Source: Rubripirellula lacrimiformis
GTDB taxonomy: Bacteria; Planctomycetota; Planctomycetia; Pirellulales; Pirellulaceae
Assembly (NCBI RefSeq): GCF_007741535.1
Contig: NZ_CP036525.1
Coordinates: 6,200,001-6,264,000 of the forward strand
Direction: 5' to 3'
Length of the DNA: 64,000 bases
The position numbers and the translations under genes were made by a program. Under the pieces are notes generated by a model. The model was not told the DNA's origin. It worked only from the letters and a program-made list of their open reading frames with translations, and made no database searches. Of this stretch, positions 7,383-42,484 are shown one piece after another. Numbering within the stretch: the stretch's first letter is position 1; each line of letters opens with the position of its first letter.

Positions 7383-8231
7383 ATGGATCATCCTGTGCTG
7401 AAAAATGCTGTTCGGATCGGTTTCGCAGGCGTCTTGTGGCTGGCAATCCCGTTGCTGGTCGCGTCATCGGCGGCCCCGGATTGGCCGGGGCAACCGAGCC
7501 AATGGCAGGGTCATGCGAAGCATGATTTCACGGTCGACGGTCGCCCCGCTTATGTCGTGGTGCCCAGCGAGTCGGTCGACGGGAATCCATGGGTCTGGCG
7601 AGCTCGCTTTCCCACCTTTCACGCCGAGGCGGATCAGTTGTTGCTGGATCGTGGGTTCCACATCGCGTACATCAACACCGACGGCATGCTGGGCAGTCCC
7701 GCGGCACTGGATCACTGGGATGCGTTTTACGATTTCATGGTGTCCCAGCACGGGATGTCCGCGAAGCCGGCACTCGAAGCGGTCAGCCGAGGTGGGCTAT
7801 TCGCTTATCGCTGGGCATCGAGGCACCCGCAGCGAGTGGCATGTATCTACGCGGATACGCCCGTGTGCGATTTCCGCAGTTGGCCGCTGGGACGAGCGAC
7901 GGGGATCGGACATCCGGCAACGTGGCAATCACTGCTGACGCAGTACGGCATGACTCAGGACGAAGCGATCCAGTTCGATGGAAACCCGATTGACGTGCTG
8001 GCACCGATCGCTGCAGCAAGGATCCCACTGCTGCACATCATCAGCATGAATGACCGAGTGGTTCCACCAACCGAAAACACGCTAGTGCTAGCCGACCGCT
8101 ATCGCAAGCTAGGCGGTGAAATCGAAGTCATCCAGGTCGACGAAGGCACCGAAGCATCCAACGGCCATCACTTCACGCATCCCGATCCGAAGCGAGTGGC
8201 GGACTTTATTGAGAAGCACACGCGGCGCTGA
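7383..8231 (+). CDS. Exported alpha/beta hydrolase, sulfatase-operon member
   Basis: A 282-residue protein with an N-terminal hydrophobic export segment (FAGVLWLAIPLLVASSAA). The core shows an alpha/beta hydrolase layout: a strand-turn around Ser135 in EAVSRGGLFAYRWA, an acid in MNDRVVPP and a late histidine in GHHFTHPDP. The nucleophile elbow is V-S-R-G-G rather than strict GxSxG. The start codon follows the stop of the sulfatase-DUF1080 gene by three bases, so the two are almost certainly co-translated and this hydrolase probably acts on the same glycan, for example by removing ester groups. The exact reaction is not visible. Confidence 0.8.
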   Translation: MDHPVLKNAVRIGFAGVLWLAIPLLVASSAAPDWPGQPSQWQGHAKHDFTVDGRPAYVVVPSESVDGNPWVWRARFPTFHAEADQLLLDRGFHIAYINTDGMLGSPAALDHWDAFYDFMVSQHGMSAKPALEAVSRGGLFAYRWASRHPQRVACIYADTPVCDFRSWPLGRATGIGHPATWQSLLTQYGMTQDEAIQFDGNPIDVLAPIAAARIPLLHIISMNDRVVPPTENTLVLADRYRKLGGEIEVIQVDEGTEASNGHHFTHPDPKRVADFIEKHTRR

Positions 8232-8283
8232 TGAAGGTGTCACTGTCGTGTTTGGGGGCCGAATCCGTCGCTGGACAAGGAAC

Positions 8284-8494
8284 GGGGAGATTGCAAATTG
8301 CAAAATGAACATTTCAAATTTAAAATTGCAGGGAGCGGAAGATGTCTTGGTCTGCATCCCTATTCGTCAGCTGGAGCGTAAATTCTAGGTTGGTAGAACT
8401 GCGGTCGCCCAAGCGCGTCGCCGCTCCCATTAGCTTCTCCCTCCAAAGCTCAATTTGCAATTTGAAATGGTTATTTTGCAATTTGCAATCTTCC
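8284..8494. repeat. 211-bp palindromic repeat, copy 1
   Basis: The left arm starts GGGGAGATTGCAAATTGC and the right arm ends TTTGCAATTTGCAATCTTCC; the arms are near-perfect inverted repeats over about 36 bp. A second inner pair, GGGAGCGG (8331-8338) with CCGCTCCC (8421-8428), extends the potential hairpin. The central part shares GGAAGATG, CTGCATCCC, CGTCAGCT, CTTCTCC and TCCAAAGC with copy 2. Confidence 0.8.
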
Positions 8495-8604
8495 TTCATC
8501 ATTCACCAGATTTCCGCAACAGAGCCAATCAGTTGATTTGCAGGCTGCGCAGGGGCTAGATTGAACAGTGTTCAGACAGTCACTGGAACGAAGCGGAAGC
8601 AAAG

Positions 8605-8985
8605 ATGATGAAGCCGAATGATCTATCGGAGCGTCTGCTGGAACTTGCCGTCCGGGTCGGGAAAGTGGTCGATGCCCTACCCGAAACGAGGCTCGGCAAG
8701 CACATTGCCGGCCAACTCGTTCGCAGCGGCACGTCCCCAGCACCGAATTATGAAGAAGCGTGCGCTGCCGAAAGCCGACGCGACTTCATTCATAAAGTAA
8801 GAATCGCACTGAAGGAGTTGCGAGAGACCCGATGCTGGTTGAATCTGATCGTAAGATCGGAATTGCTTCCAGAATCTCGCATGAACGGAGTCGCAAACGA
8901 AGCCGATGAACTGTGCCGAATCTTGGGCCAGACGCTCGTGACAGCGACGAAGAACGAACAACAAGTAAGGAAAAGCATCCGCTAA
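8605..8985 (+). CDS. Four-helix-bundle protein of the S23/IVS family
   Basis: A 126-residue, probably all-helical cytoplasmic protein. The pattern of the TIGR02436/S23 four-helix-bundle family is clear: an N-terminal helix LSERLLELAVRVGKVVDALP, then GKHIAGQLVRSGTSPAPNYEEA, RRDFIHKVRIALKELRETRCW and a last helix ending in LCRILGQTLV. Relatives are encoded inside 23S rRNA intervening sequences and also as free-standing genes; a related fold (Avd) serves diversity-generating retroelements. Function of the free-standing form is unknown. The gene sits alone between two copies of a palindromic repeat. The first of two adjacent ATG codons was used; there is no strong ribosome-binding site. Confidence 0.88.
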   Translation: MMKPNDLSERLLELAVRVGKVVDALPETRLGKHIAGQLVRSGTSPAPNYEEACAAESRRDFIHKVRIALKELRETRCWLNLIVRSELLPESRMNGVANEADELCRILGQTLVTATKNEQQVRKSIR

Positions 8986-9009
8986 ATCGCGAAGGGACGA
9001 GAGAGGGAA

Positions 9010-9220
9010 GGGGAGATTGCAAATTGAACATTTCAAATTTCAAATTTGAAATTGCGGGGACCGGAAGATGGTTTGGACTGCATCCCCAATCGTCAGCTCT
9101 GGCCGGGTACTCAGGGTTCCTAGGAGGTGGTCGGTCAGCGCCACCGCAGTTCCCGCCTGCTTCTCCATCCAAAGCCCAATTTGCAATTTGAAATGTTCAA
9201 TTTGCAATTTGCAATCTTCC
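9010..9220. repeat. 211-bp palindromic repeat, copy 2
   Basis: Same length and orientation as the copy upstream of the four-helix-bundle gene. The right arm (CAATTTGCAATTTGCAATC) is nearly identical to that of copy 1. The left arm lacks a short GCAAAAT segment and instead has an extra CAAATTT iteration. The central region is diverged but keeps several identical blocks, so the two copies are not a recent exact duplication. It ends 26 bp from the deaminase stop codon. Confidence 0.8.
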
Positions 9221-9246
9221 TTTCTCCAACCATCGAATAAACGCCG

Positions 9247-9687
9247 CTACTCTTCCCCGATATCTTCGTTCCACAATTCCGGATGCGACGCGATGAACTT
9301 TTGCATCAGTTCGATGCAGCCTGGATCATTGGCGATCACTAGTTCGGTGCCTCGCGATTGGACGTAGGATTCCGGGCCTTGAAAGGTTTGGTTCTCGCCG
9401 ATGACGATCTTGGGAATCTGGTACAGCAGGGCAGCTCCGCTGCACATATCGCAGGGCGACAACGTCGAATACAGAACCGAACGTCGGTATTGTTCCGCCG
9501 TCAGCCGGCCTGCGTTTTCCAGGCAATCCATTTCGGCGTGCAGCACGGCGCTGCCGTTTTGGACGCGGCGGTTGTGCCCGCGGCCGACAATCTCGCCATC
9601 GATCACCAACACAGATCCGATCGGAATGCCTCCCTCGTCACGTCCAAGGCAGGCTTCGTCGTATGCCGATTTCAAAAAGAGATCCAT
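9247..9687 (-). CDS. Nucleoside/cytosine deaminase, zinc-dependent
   Basis: A 146-residue cytidine-deaminase-fold enzyme. Zinc ligands and catalytic residues are visible: His50 and Glu52 in LHAEMDCLENAG, Cys79 and Cys82 in STLSPCDMCSGAAL. Overall sequence (GIPIGSVLVIDGEIVGRGHN, a C-terminal GTELVIANDPGCIELMQKFI) is closest in pattern to yeast-type cytosine deaminases (FCY1-like) and guanine deaminase relatives. Cytoplasmic pyrimidine or purine salvage is likely; the substrate base is not decided by sequence alone. It is monocistronic and divergent from the beta-propeller gene. Confidence 0.85.
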   Translation of the reverse strand: MDLFLKSAYDEACLGRDEGGIPIGSVLVIDGEIVGRGHNRRVQNGSAVLHAEMDCLENAGRLTAEQYRRSVLYSTLSPCDMCSGAALLYQIPKIVIGENQTFQGPESYVQSRGTELVIANDPGCIELMQKFIASHPELWNEDIGEE

Positions 9688-9785
9688 GGTGTTCCTTGGG
9701 GAAGTTATCGAATGAAGCTAGCGAAAGGCACCGTTTCGACCTCGGATCGCCAATCCACCCAGGTCGATGCGTTTCCCAGAACCCC

Positions 9786-9839
9786 TCTAGGATGCAGAGT
9801 CTTTCTAGGATACGGGGCCCTTCTAGGATACGACTACCG
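9786..9839. repeat. 18-bp tandem repeat, three copies
   Basis: Three consecutive 18-bp units each begin TCTAGGAT followed by RC, with variable last bases, spaced exactly 18 bp apart. They lie in the intergenic region between the divergent deaminase and beta-propeller genes, 70 bp before the latter's ATG. Confidence 0.75.
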
Positions 9840-9909
9840 AGCCGCGACGGGGACAAGTAAACTGACGGGCCATTCCTGCCCTTCCACGCCTTCACGAGAC
9901 ACCAGTCCG

Positions 9910-11154
9910 ATGAAAACGTTCCGTTCTGTTGGTGCATTTGCCGCCATCGCCATTGCTGTTTCCGTCGCACAGGCCGGTGACTGGCCTCAGTATCGCGGTC
10001 TGGCCGGCGATGGAAAGTCGGTTGAATCGATCGGGCAGGTCTCGTCCGACGCGATGAAGGTGCTGTGGAACGTGCCGGCCCCGCTGGGGTTCAGTTCCAT
10101 GTCCGTCGCGGATGGCCTCGCCTATACCCTGATCGCTCGAGACGACAAAGAAACCGTTGTGGCTCTCGATGCGGCAACTGGCCAAGAAGTGTGGAGCGTG
10201 CCGCTAGGCAGCAGCAAATACGAACAGGGCGGCGGTGACTCCGGTGCCCCCGGCAACCGCGGCGGCGATGGCCCGCGTTCCACACCCACCGTCGATGGTG
10301 ATCGACTGTACGTGTACGACTCGTACATGGTGCTGTCCTGCTTGGACACAAAGACTGGCCGCGTCTTGTGGCAGCATGATGTGATCGCCGAAAACGAAGG
10401 ACGCAACATCAAGTGGTTGAACGCAAGCTCGCCACTGATCGAGGGTAATCGAGTGATCGTCGGTGGCGGCGGTGCCGGACAATCGTTCTTGGCATTTGAC
10501 AAGTCGACTGGCGACCGAGTTTGGGCCAGCGGAGACGAAACCGTCACTCACGCGACACCGATCCTAGCCGAAGTCGGTGGCAAGAGCGGAGTCGTGTTCT
10601 TCACGCAATCGGGATTGGTTGCCGTGGGCGCAGATGACGGTCAAGAAGTATGGCGAGCCAAGTTTCCATTCAGCGTTTCGACCGCTGCGTCGCCGGTCGC
10701 TGATGGCGACCTGGTCTACTGTTCCGCTGGCTATGGGGTCGGCGCTGGCTTGTTCAAAATCGACAACCAGTCGACACCTCAAGAAATGTGGTACAAGTCG
10801 AACGAGCTGATGAACCACTGGAGCACCCCCGTGGTTCACGACGGCCACCTGTACGGAATCTTTGAATTCAAAAAGTACGGCAAGGCTCCGCTGCAATGTG
10901 TGGAGTTGTCGACCGGCGAGATCAAATGGAACGAACGAGGCTTTGGCCCCGGCAACTGCATCCTGGTCGGCGACAAGCTTGTTGTGCTGTCGGACGCTGG
11001 CGAGGTCGTGATCGCCAAGGCTACGCCCACCGCCTACGAAGAAGTCGCTCGCAAACAAGTGCTAGAAGGCAAGTGCTGGTCCACACCTGCCTATAGCGAT
11101 GGCAAAATCTTCGTGCGAAGCACTCAGCAAGCAGCCTGTGTTGCGATCGACTGA
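9910..11154 (+). CDS. Exported PQQ-type beta-propeller protein
   Basis: A 414-residue protein with a signal peptide (MKTFRSVGAFAAIAIAVSVA, cut after AQA). The rest is a series of PQQ-like/quinoprotein-type propeller blades: DWPQYRG at the start, then repeated A/V-x-D-x-x-TG-x-x-VW motifs (LDAATGQEVWSV, LDTKTGRVLWQHD, FDKSTGDRVWASGD, GADDGQEVWRAKF). Such planctomycete proteins usually bear no proven cofactor and are thought to be scaffolds or oxidoreductase-like. No quinoprotein dehydrogenase catalytic motif was identified. A longer upstream open frame was rejected because it runs through the tandem repeats and the divergent gene. Confidence 0.82.
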   Translation: MKTFRSVGAFAAIAIAVSVAQAGDWPQYRGLAGDGKSVESIGQVSSDAMKVLWNVPAPLGFSSMSVADGLAYTLIARDDKETVVALDAATGQEVWSVPLGSSKYEQGGGDSGAPGNRGGDGPRSTPTVDGDRLYVYDSYMVLSCLDTKTGRVLWQHDVIAENEGRNIKWLNASSPLIEGNRVIVGGGGAGQSFLAFDKSTGDRVWASGDETVTHATPILAEVGGKSGVVFFTQSGLVAVGADDGQEVWRAKFPFSVSTAASPVADGDLVYCSAGYGVGAGLFKIDNQSTPQEMWYKSNELMNHWSTPVVHDGHLYGIFEFKKYGKAPLQCVELSTGEIKWNERGFGPGNCILVGDKLVVLSDAGEVVIAKATPTAYEEVARKQVLEGKCWSTPAYSDGKIFVRSTQQAACVAID

Positions 11155-37519: not shown

Positions 37520-37567
37520 AATCCCGGTAACAATCCCGGTAACAATCCCGGTAGCAATCTCGGTAGC
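37520..37567. repeat. 12-bp tandem repeat, four units
   Basis: Four consecutive units of AATCCCGGTAAC, AATCCCGGTAAC, AATCCCGGTAGC and AATCTCGGTAGC. The unit equals the outer tail of the adjacent reverse-oriented hairpin repeat, so it probably arose by slippage of that tail. Confidence 0.85.
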
Positions 37568-37597
37568 GAGACTCGCCAAGAGTTTCGGCCCTCCCGG
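37561..37597 (-). repeat. 37-bp hairpin repeat (reverse orientation), copy 1
   Basis: Contains GAGACTCGCCAAGAGTTTCG, whose reverse complement is CGAAACTC-TTGGC-GAGTCTCG, an 8-bp stem with one mismatch around the loop TTGGC. It is base-for-base identical to the copy at 37897-37933. Confidence 0.85.
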
Positions 37598-37650: not shown

Positions 37651-37896
37651 AATCGCAGCGTCAACCCAACTACCATCCAGACGCTAGCAGCCTGGTGACC
37701 GAACCGAACCCACGACACAACGGGGAGCCGCTGGCCGTGAAGGCACGGGGGATTCCCGGCCGCGGACGCGTCGCGGCTCACGAAATCGACAGATTGTTAA
37801 CGGGCTTAAAGATGGGCGATCCTAGCGTCGCCAGGGGCCCATGATGCGACTCGGAAATCCGAGTCCATCGACACCTGCCAAGGCGTCCGAAAATCC

Positions 37897-37933
37897 CGGT
37901 AGCGAGACTCGCCAAGAGTTTCGGCCCTCCCGG
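37897..37933 (-). repeat. 37-bp hairpin repeat (reverse orientation), copy 2
   Basis: Identical to the copy at 37561-37597 and, as there, preceded by AAATCCCGG. A forward-oriented hairpin of the same family follows about 20 bp later. Confidence 0.85.
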
Positions 37934-37952
37934 TAGCCTGGCCGACGTATAG

Positions 37953-37985
37953 CTTGGCCGAAGCTCTTGGCGAGCTTCGCTACGG
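37953..37985 (+). repeat. Hairpin repeat, forward orientation, GCTC-stem variant
   Basis: TTGGC precedes CGAAGCTC (37959-37966), loop TTGGC, GAGCTTCG (37972-37979), then CTACGGG. The perfect 8-bp stem differs from the AAGTC/GACTT stem of the copies after der by paired substitutions. Confidence 0.8.
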
Positions 37986-38015
37986 GCGTCTCTACGGGCT
38001 TCTCTACGGGCTTCG
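37980..38015. repeat. 12-bp tandem repeat, three units
   Basis: CTACGGGCGTCT, CTACGGGCTTCT and CTACGGGCTTCG follow one another. The unit begins with the CTACGGG tail of the hairpin just upstream, mirroring the tandem array at the other end of the cluster. Confidence 0.8.
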
Positions 38016-40981: not shown

Positions 40982-42316
40982 ATGCCTGTCCCACAAGTCG
41001 CTATCGTCGGTCGCCCCAATGTCGGCAAAAGCAGCCTGTTCAATTGGTTGGCTCGCCGCCGTCTGGCCATCGTGGACGATCACGCCGGTGTGACTCGCGA
41101 CCGAATGATGACGCTGATCGAGCACGGGGAACGGTTCTTTGAACTGGTCGACACCGGCGGAATGGGCATCGTCGACGATGACGATCTGACCGCCGACGTG
41201 CGTCGCCAAATCGAACTGGCGATCAACGCAGCCGACGTCATCGTGTTGGTAGTCGACGTTCAAACCGGACTGATGCCATTGGACGAAGAAGTCGTCGAAC
41301 GGCTGCGAGGCATCGAACGACCGGTGATCCTGGTTTGCAACAAGGCCGACCAACCGCACCAAGATGTCCAGGCGGAAGAATTCCACAAGCTGGGCCGCGG
41401 TCACATGATCCAGGTCAGCACGACCCAGAACCGGCACCGCGATGACCTGCTGGACCTGATCGTTGACCGATTGCCCGAATCCGACGGTGCGATCCAAGCC
41501 GAATCCCAGATGAAGGTGACCATCGTCGGTCGCCGAAACGTGGGCAAAAGCACATTCGTCAACACCTTGGCTGAATCCGACCGGATGATCACCAGCGAAG
41601 TGCCCGGCACGACTCGCGACAGTGTCGATGTTCGCTTCGAAATGGACGGTCAAACGTTCATGGCGATTGATACCCCTGGGTTGCGAAAGCGAAAGAGCCA
41701 GCGGACGGACCTGGAATACTACGGCATGCACCGGGCGCAGCGCAGCGTTCGCCGAGCCGACGTCGTGCTGATGTTCTTTGACGCTACCGAAACGGTCAGC
41801 AAAGTTGACAAGCAATTGCTTGGCTATGTGATGGAAAATCACAAACCATGCATCTTCGTCATCAACAAGTGGGACCAGTTGCACGGCACCGTGCCAACCG
41901 ACCGCTGGGTGCGATACCTGCGGGGACAGTTCCCGACGTTGGCCTACGCGCCGATCGCGTTCATCACCGGGCAAACCGGCAAGAACGTCAAAGCACTGCT
42001 GAATCACGCACAAATGTTGTTCAAACAGTCCTGCGAACGAGCGTCAACCGGTCAGTTGAACCGCGTCATTCGTGCGGCCGTCGACGCCCACATTCCGCCG
42101 CTGTACCAGAACCGTCGCCCCAAGATTTATTACGCGACGCAGGTGGCCACCCAGCCGCCGACGATCGTGTTGGTGTGCAACGAACCCAAGGCGATCGGCA
42201 ACGATTACCAACGCTACCTGATGGGCGTGTTGCGAGATCACCTGAAGTTTGGCGAAGTGCCGATCAAGATGTACCTGCACAAACGGCACCGCAACGACGA
42301 AGGCCCTGACGCTTAA
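40982..42316 (+). CDS. der: Ribosome-assembly GTPase Der (EngA)
   Basis: A 444-residue tandem GTPase needed for 50S subunit maturation. The first G domain has GRPNVGKSSLFNWL, DTGG and NKAD. The second has GRRNVGKSTFVNTL, DTPGLRKRKSQRTDLEYYG and NKWD. The final ~90 residues form the KH-like domain (RPKIYYATQVATQPPTIVLV, KMYLHKRHRNDE). The ATG giving MPVPQVAIVGRP was taken because G1 follows immediately. A tandem hairpin array starts right after the stop, between it and the convergent ftr gene. Confidence 0.95.
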   Translation: MPVPQVAIVGRPNVGKSSLFNWLARRRLAIVDDHAGVTRDRMMTLIEHGERFFELVDTGGMGIVDDDDLTADVRRQIELAINAADVIVLVVDVQTGLMPLDEEVVERLRGIERPVILVCNKADQPHQDVQAEEFHKLGRGHMIQVSTTQNRHRDDLLDLIVDRLPESDGAIQAESQMKVTIVGRRNVGKSTFVNTLAESDRMITSEVPGTTRDSVDVRFEMDGQTFMAIDTPGLRKRKSQRTDLEYYGMHRAQRSVRRADVVLMFFDATETVSKVDKQLLGYVMENHKPCIFVINKWDQLHGTVPTDRWVRYLRGQFPTLAYAPIAFITGQTGKNVKALLNHAQMLFKQSCERASTGQLNRVIRAAVDAHIPPLYQNRRPKIYYATQVATQPPTIVLVCNEPKAIGNDYQRYLMGVLRDHLKFGEVPIKMYLHKRHRNDEGPDA

Positions 42317-42320
42317 AGCA

Positions 42321-42484
42321 GGTTGGCCGAAAGTCTTGACGACTTTCGCTACGGAGATGGAAATGGTTGGCCGAAAGTCTTGGCGACTTTCGCTACGGAA
42401 ACGGAAATGGTTGGCCGAAAGTCTTGGCGACTTTCGCTACGGAAATGGTTGGCCGAAAGTCTTGGCGACTTTTGCTACGGAAAT
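42321..42484 (+). repeat. Four tandem hairpin units after der
   Basis: Units of 44, 44, 38 and 38 bp each begin GGTTGGCCGAAAGTC and contain CGAAAGTC-TTGRC-GACTTTCG, a perfect 8-bp stem in units 1-3 and one G-T wobble in unit 4, then CTACGG. The 6-bp length difference is a CGGAAA insertion. The array fills the gap between the convergent der and ftr genes. Confidence 0.9.

Follow-up and report, generated by a model that had tools for sequence, protein, structure and literature searches.

S23 genes inside matching heptamer arms suggest a widespread, poorly recognised kind of mobile element

What kind of element consists of one small S23 gene enclosed by two long palindromes, and how does it come to lie between ordinary protein genes? 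The question is raised by a block in a window of Rubripirellula lacrimiformis DNA, the window being the whole stretch of 64,000 nucleotides that was analysed. A sequence-only reading had proposed that the block (Table 1) is a genomic relative of the intervening sequences (IVSs) of 23S rRNA or a MITE-like composite.

The block and its relatives in the genus

The reading had described two 211-bp copies in the same orientation around one small gene, and this arrangement was borne out by direct repeats at 8278-8372/9004-9098 (83%) and 8419-8496/9145-9222 (86%), with a spacing of 726. Each copy is indeed a long imperfect palindrome, with arms longer than the roughly 36 bp first given: 44 nt in E1, pairing at 89%, and 48 nt in E2, pairing at 81% with a core of 31 nt at 97%. 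The outermost ends (8285-8328/9177-9220), previously put at 34/36, form an inverted match of 91% over 44 nt. The block arm can be read by eye as the 7-bp units TTGCAAA TTGCAAA ATGAACA TTTCAAA TTTAAAA TTG, a composition that the sequence-only reading had not noticed. The contrast of AT-rich arms with GC-rich surroundings was also seen in 100-bp windows, with a GC content of 0.39-0.47 over the arms against 0.51-0.66 outside the block.

Table 1. Features of the block in the window and of its immediate surroundings
Feature	Position	Strand	Remarks
Whole block: S23 gene between two hairpin elements	8284..9220	+	Inverted repeats at both outer ends
Hairpin element E1, 211 bp, S23-less	8284..8494	.	Arms 8285-8328 / 8451-8494; TTGCAAA-type 7-bp units (by eye)
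S23 four-helix-bundle gene, 126 aa	8605..8985	+	PF05635, TIGR02436
Hairpin element E2, 211 bp, S23-less	9010..9220	.	Arms 9007-9054 / 9177-9224
Upstream co-directional ORF, 282 aa	7383..8231	+	Hydrolase-like by eye; stop 52 bp ahead of block
Downstream convergent ORF, 146 aa	9247..9687	-	Nucleoside/base-deaminase-like by eye; stop 26 bp past block

Folded as RNA, the whole block gave a z value of -7.0 (20 shuffles) and E1 and E2 gave -7.75 and -5.25 (200 shuffles each), no shuffle being equally good in any of the three. The gene matches PF05635 (E 1e-16) and TIGR02436 (E 3e-24), in agreement with its reading as an S23/IVS-like four-helix bundle, and the ORF list, inspected by eye, contains no transposase within the block, as had been stated. 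Searches of positions 7400-10200 against Rfam (E up to 1), of the defence library, and of the window S23 protein against PHROG gave no match. The earlier observation of a palindrome-bracketed S23 gene is therefore confirmed. Short repeats of TTGGCCGAAAGTCTTGGCGACTTTCGCTACGG type, palindromic and REP-like to the eye, lie elsewhere in the window at 37556-37597, 37892-37988 and 42315-42483.

The genome holding the window (G000) is a single contig of 8.54 Mb, in which the block as blastn query found 148 pieces, in tandem arrays and as single copies; the repeats thus do occur elsewhere, whereas their confinement to the block would have counted against the sequence-only reading, which had not noticed these copies. 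One array, at 2.094 Mb, comprises 10 units of about 273 bp, and others lie near 2.50, 2.54, 5.72, 5.98 and 6.05 Mb. The cores between the arms of E1 and of E2 had no blastn match elsewhere in this genome. PF05635 has only two matches in it, both S23 genes being bracketed by TTGCAAA-type arms, so that nearly all of the arm copies must be S23-less. At L025, L030 and L031 (near 2.50, 5.98 and 6.05 Mb), the TTGCAAATT elements of the tandem arrays are interspersed with another palindromic repeat, which is rich in GC (CCCCTCACCCCAACCCTCTCCCCC ... GGGGGAGAGGG and its variants).

The second S23 element of this genome, L023, measures 519 bp end to end and has the same arms as the window block. It has the N-terminal part of a peptidase-like frame (named by eye) on one side and the C-terminal part on the other; in the relative G021 that frame is open throughout, with 621 bp in place of the element, and BLAST places the breakpoints no more than 5 nt from the ends of the element. 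Because 621 bp of G021 are replaced, the insertion was accompanied, or later followed, by a deletion. An empty site in a relative, which the sequence-only reading had suggested looking for, is thus represented by this occupied/unoccupied pair, but none was found for the window block itself, whose right flank matches 13 other genus genomes and whose left flank has no match among those listed in genus genomes. A second copy of the peptidase-like gene (G000:C1:4632149) lies about 7 kb from the copy broken by L023, and the C-terminal end of its frame is shorter than in G021.

Among 22 genus genomes, with 13-14 candidates scored in each so that absence elsewhere is not strict, the listed arm matches all fall in G000 and G002, both of which have this S23 type, and to that extent repeats and S23 co-occur. 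G002 also gave the longest DNA match to the window S23 gene outside G000 among the matches listed, and has the same arm type. A divergent S23 type was seen at L039 (G001) and L052 (G002), with arrays of the heptamer AGTACTC downstream only in the stretches inspected.

Paired heptamer arms at S23 loci across bacteria

PF05635 matches were found in 146 of 199 genomes of the host's family. A scan of genome_contigs with one query yielded the best 80 of at least 581 confirmed S23 loci, a selection that biases all proportions taken from it; by record title, these belong to Cyanobacteria, Alpha- and Betaproteobacteria, Bacteroidetes, Planctomycetes and others, including Desulfobacteria-type lineages, SAR324, Blastocatellia and Nitrospirae. 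We scored the inverted repeats between the 250 bp before and the 250 bp after each S23 gene, using windows shifted along the same loci as controls. With two of the 80 left out because a flank was too short, 58 of 78 usable loci of these best 80 of at least 581 scored 16 or more, compared with 0 of 844 shifted windows; at a score of at least 14 the figures were 64 loci and 3 shifted controls. The set was enlarged by 52 Planctomycete and 14 viral-contig loci to 146, of which one had no S23 match and four were excluded because their flanks were short or masked. Scores of at least 16 were reached by 99 of the remaining 141 (34/51, 9/14 and 56/76) and by none of 755 shifted controls, two of which reached 14. 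The other 42 loci scored below 16, and some have no visible arms.

The pairing is private to each locus. When a left arm was combined with a foreign right arm, a score of at least 16 was reached in 1.0% of 3000 draws, and in 107 of the 141 loci the locus's own right arm outscored every sampled foreign arm (up to 30). The flanks match themselves best at a lag of 7, where the peak is 0.409 against 0.256 in the control; the best lag per flank segment was 7 in 104 of 158 and 8 in 22. Among the 112 loci with a score of at least 14, the arms have period 7 in 94, and the median arm is 31 nt long. The notion of a genomic relative of IVS elements is supported by these results, and more widely than had been guessed, since S23 genes with private inverted arms occur outside rRNA in many phyla. 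E. coli rrlA (23S) had no blastn match at 1e-10 in the 276 fetched loci, overlapping ones included, and with the negative Rfam search of the window this rules out insertion in a 23S rRNA gene.

The phage collection gave no S23 match to a Rhizobium query. Plasmids 1 and 2 of Calothrix brevissima NIES-22 (L219, L220) carry an integrase, an S23 gene and a hypothetical gene in the same order; because the two plasmids have this longer module in common, the element ends are not readable there.

Arms and protein vary together; a Mesorhizobium S23, for example, has GTGAATG arms and a Rhizobium S23 has AGGCAAT arms. In the 112 loci, arm similarity was 0.05 at 40-50% S23 identity, 0.50 at 70-80% and 0.74 at 80-90%. 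Such co-variation could reflect co-inheritance. The arms were compared with four-fold degenerate sites. At S23 identities of 0.75-0.90 (26 pairs, which are not independent) the four-fold sites agreed at 0.39 and the arms at 0.88-0.90; at 0.70-0.75 (24 pairs) the values were 0.30 and 0.67. Four-fold site agreement was 0.28 in pairs at 0.55-0.65, and the arms of unrelated S23 genes agree at about 0.51. The silent sites are thus nearly saturated, which argues for constraint rather than co-inheritance of S23 and arm, and on these comparisons the arms look constrained rather than merely young. Recognition of the arms by the encoded protein, which the sequence-only reading had offered as one possibility, would fit the co-variation.

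Operon position, exchange and dispersed hairpins

On crude ORF calls, both neighbours are co-directional with the S23 gene in 59 of 75 cases, compared with 105 of 241 triples taken from these loci as controls (p 8e-8). Where the upstream frame is co-directional and has 150 codons or more (71 loci), 48 arms begin no further than 10 nt from its stop (median +1), with the caveat that heptamers containing TAG or TGA can themselves furnish a stop. The window block departs from this pattern, given the distance of its upstream stop and the convergence of its other neighbour (Table 1).

One position recurs: 23 of the 80 loci (again the best 80 of at least 581) lie between nuoC and nuoD in alphaproteobacteria, and their heptamers are of several types. 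With one nuoC-nuoD locus as query, 60 records of the plasmid collection were matched, each over less than 80% of the query. In the four records inspected, nuoC and nuoD are either 48-56 bp apart with no S23 between them (Shinella and two Sinorhizobium records) or overlap (Sphingomonas). For each of the 23 S23 genes at nuoC-nuoD, the nearest sampled S23 is another from nuoC-nuoD, and yet NuoD and S23 identities are uncorrelated (Spearman 0.015, 253 pairs). Rhizobium leguminosarum and R. lentis, for example, share 98% identity in NuoD and 58% in S23, and their arms differ; in R. leguminosarum, however, S23 is interrupted by an internal stop and the arms score weakly, at 13.5. In the NuoD tree three Mesorhizobium rows are grouped at 100/99, and the S23 data reject that clade in the AU test (p 0.001), whereas a Rhizobium clade is not rejected for S23 (p 0.083). 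Mantel tests on the 19 nuoC-nuoD loci with arms gave r 0.45 (p 0.0005) for S23 and arm, r 0 (p 0.52) for NuoD and S23, and a weakly positive r 0.12 (p 0.10) for NuoD and arm. Judged from these trees and comparisons, one S23 exchange at nuoC-nuoD is firm and the others are suggestive, and mobility is supported at two kinds of site, that of L023 and nuoC-nuoD.

The distribution of S23-less arrays was determined in 24 genomes hand-chosen from the 80, all S23-positive, a heptamer being called cognate from one S23 locus per genome even where, as in several genomes, there are more. All 4 cognate genomes, whose S23 locus has GTGAAT arms, contain three successive GTGAATR units (76, 46, 9 and 4 matches, with overlapping windows included in the count), as do 2 of the 20 others (p 0.0014); the off-type genomes are G227, with 15 matches and no such arms at either of its two S23 loci, and G214, with two. 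For GCGAATR the numbers were 4 of 7 cognate genomes, the other three having none, against 2 of 17 (p 0.038), with five off-type matches in G224 and one in another genome, about 50 bp from its second S23. The reversed GTGAATR and GCGAATR patterns had no match in any of the 24 genomes. Of 20 places away from S23, hand-chosen mostly since both strands matched, none has an S23 frame and 18 are convergent arrays of 81-243 bp, many of them overlapping gene ends; E1 and E2 of the window block share this form. S23-less arrays of the two heptamers thus occur mainly in genomes whose S23 has that heptamer, with imperfect specificity. Three units of the Planctomycete heptamer GAGTTGA matched in 7 of 199 genomes, six of them with S23, an uninformative count; in the one without S23 (G020) the matches lie at contig ends among the places listed, and the reversed pattern, being the same repeat backwards, gave nearly equal counts and did not discriminate.

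A proposed explanation, its alternatives and known systems

Taken together, our results suggest that S23 genes inside matching heptamer arms between ordinary genes are a kind of mobile element that is widespread and has been poorly recognised. Comparison of sequences establishes the anatomy of the loci, the private pairing and period 7 of the arms, the co-variation of protein and arm, and the operon position, as well as occupied and unoccupied sites, a single exchange at one fixed site and dispersed hairpins of the same heptamer. We think it probable, with ample room for doubt, that the block belongs, as a composite, to a widespread group of small selfish elements, related to the 23S IVSs and lying between protein genes, which would work as follows. 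The autonomous form would consist of a 5' arm with some four to five 7-bp repeats, the S23 gene and a reverse-complement 3' arm; each S23 lineage would have one private heptamer, and shorter S23-less hairpins of the same heptamer would be scattered in the genome. An element placed directly after a stop codon would have its S23 expressed by read-through transcription of the operon. The transcribed arms would form a long stem, presumably cut by RNase III as in rRNA, and a stem that can be cleaved in this way would make the insertion cheap for the host. The S23 protein may bind its own heptamer arms, perhaps with one subunit per heptamer, and so promote the spread or upkeep of its own element and, in trans, of the S23-less hairpins, in support of small satellites as RAYT supports REPINs; a separate enzyme would move the element DNA.

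An alternative that we regard as unlikely, though deserving of attention, takes the hairpins as the functional unit, arisen by slippage of 7-mers and serving as RNA stabilisers, terminators or processing sites between cistrons, with S23 as a passenger or a host-useful regulator rather than part of a mobile element. BIMEs have functions of just this sort. The great excess of arm copies over the two S23 genes of G000 and their tandem amplification, the 20 chosen heptamer places without S23 and the location of arrays at gene ends would all be expected, and polymerase slippage has been cited for heptamer excess in one report (PMC4679880). However, the arms vary among S23 lineages, match within a locus and track S23 more than NuoD, whereas a plain hairpin function would have no need of a protein-specific heptamer; the L023 element, moreover, sits in a broken peptidase-like frame. 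A DDE-transposon MITE or REP/RAYT element carrying S23 by chance, which would have terminal inverted repeats, dispersed short copies and one gene within inverted copies, seems extremely improbable, because the block has no transposase and the arms are 7-bp arrays. The suggested search for target-site duplications found none, 5 of 44 pairings scoring against 4 of 44 in a single random control; of the five, four are register effects of the heptamer, and some elements are counted in two registers. On this evidence the block is not a classical MITE, and no recombinase was found among the sequences examined. REP/RAYT is rejected for G000, where the five matches to the Y1 transposase (PF01797) are 305-655 kb from the nearest arm copy, none being closer than 300 kb, and where the arms are not, by eye, palindromes of 20-40 bp headed by GTAG/CGTC. 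What stands of the MITE-like interpretation is the dispersal of S23-less copies, which largely track the S23 type, and the earlier interpretation as a whole is partly supported.

We give a small chance to a retro-element, in which S23 would be an Avd-like cofactor and the hairpin RNA would be copied by a reverse transcriptase in trans, as in diversity-generating retroelements (DGRs). One source describes Avd as a homologue of PF05635 (PMC10053308), and the canonical S23 of L080 matches the PHROG 'Avd protein of DGR' (E 7e-10), whereas the window protein has no PHROG match. RVT_1 and S23 are weakly associated across the 199 genomes (115/31/34/19, p 0.043, a raw value with respect to genome size, completeness and kinship). 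However, 31 of the 146 S23-positive genomes have no RVT_1 match, among them G185 and G201 (100% complete, with 15 and 10 S23 matches), and with so weak an association dependence on a resident reverse transcriptase is not favoured. The single RVT_1 match of G000 lies at 1.94 Mb, and the window at 6.2 Mb.

Returning to the selfish-element reading, it can tentatively be taken further, to a generalization that we hold as possible rather than probable: S23 proteins across bacteria would be sequence-specific partners of heptamer arrays, a pentamer reading about five 7-nt units with one word per lineage; the two together would make up a class of mobile elements that, with no transposase of their own, insert or are retained at operon stops, undergo horizontal exchange at fixed sites (nuoC-nuoD is one) and disseminate hairpin satellites in trans; the rRNA IVSs would form a branch of this class; and its satellites would account for much unexplained heptamer repeat DNA in Nostoc, Xanthomonas, Geobacter and Planctomycetes. 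The structures 2gsc and 2rld have five chains each; an S23 structure is reportedly the subject of Lin 2006, and cyanobacterial repeats are said to be treated in Mazel 1990 and Elhai 2008. The link would give a class of repeats a testable partner and an orphan protein family a candidate substrate, its private arm, and the protein/word pairs of the S23 lineages would form a natural series for studies of recognition. It also shows an S23 element persisting in essential operons, where an insertion would be expected to be costly. In the literature covered, which is partial and has most subscription papers outside it, S23 and heptamers are joined for Coxiella alone, and within that coverage none of the papers that describe heptamers in Coxiella, Xanthomonas and Geobacter makes the general link.

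The nearest comparable systems include the 23S IVSs with an S23 ORF, for example those of Coxiella and Leptospira, which likewise lie within a transcribed unit with the ORF in sense orientation, end in inverted repeats that pair into a long stem and are patchily distributed; the block, too, carries an S23 ORF and terminal inverted repeats capable of a long stem. According to one report (PMC4990558), the Coxiella IVS has a 28-bp terminal stem and, just ahead of the S23 ORF, two or three tandem GACAGAT units and a degenerate one, a likeness to the heptamers beside the S23 genes described here; it is excised by RNase III, which cuts at the start of the first repeat. The same text describes a Xanthomonas S23 protein as a homopentamer, S23 proteins as without known function and the functionality and origin of IVSs as unclear. 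It also states that the Coxiella S23 ORF is thought to be unexpressed, which counts against the protein being needed in that rRNA copy. Unlike the IVSs, the loci described here lie between protein genes, have no 23S match, use a private heptamer per lineage and are accompanied by dispersed S23-less hairpins.

In the RAYT/REP/REPIN system, according to PMC2817692, RAYT genes are always flanked by inverted REPs and the abundance of non-autonomous copies follows the cognate gene, both of which resemble our findings; S23, however, is a small four-helix bundle rather than an HUH tyrosine transposase, and its arms are 7-bp arrays rather than GTAG-headed palindromes. The Avd proteins of DGRs belong to a homologous family, as noted above, but neither a reverse transcriptase nor a template or variable repeat was noticed within the block, and S23 also occurs in genomes without RVT_1. 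The GGGAATC and GGGGA(C/T)T repeats of Xanthomonas and Nostoc share the form of dispersed heptamer arrays and convergent inverted pairs (PMC4692102). There, heptameric repeats are said to be over-represented in many bacterial genomes without a detailed literature, and X. campestris is credited with 186 GGGAATC arrays, most of four units, with 70 convergent pairs and an average distance of 28 nt from the 5' neighbouring gene; in contrast with our account, they are treated as G-quadruplex repeats, and 'S23' is absent from that text. The solved S23 structure 2gsc is that of XCC0516 of the same species, Xanthomonas campestris. In Geobacter metallireducens, another report (PMC2700814) describes tandem heptanucleotide families of four (49 places) and five (15/16 sites) as putative regulatory elements, and these may be satellites of the same kind.
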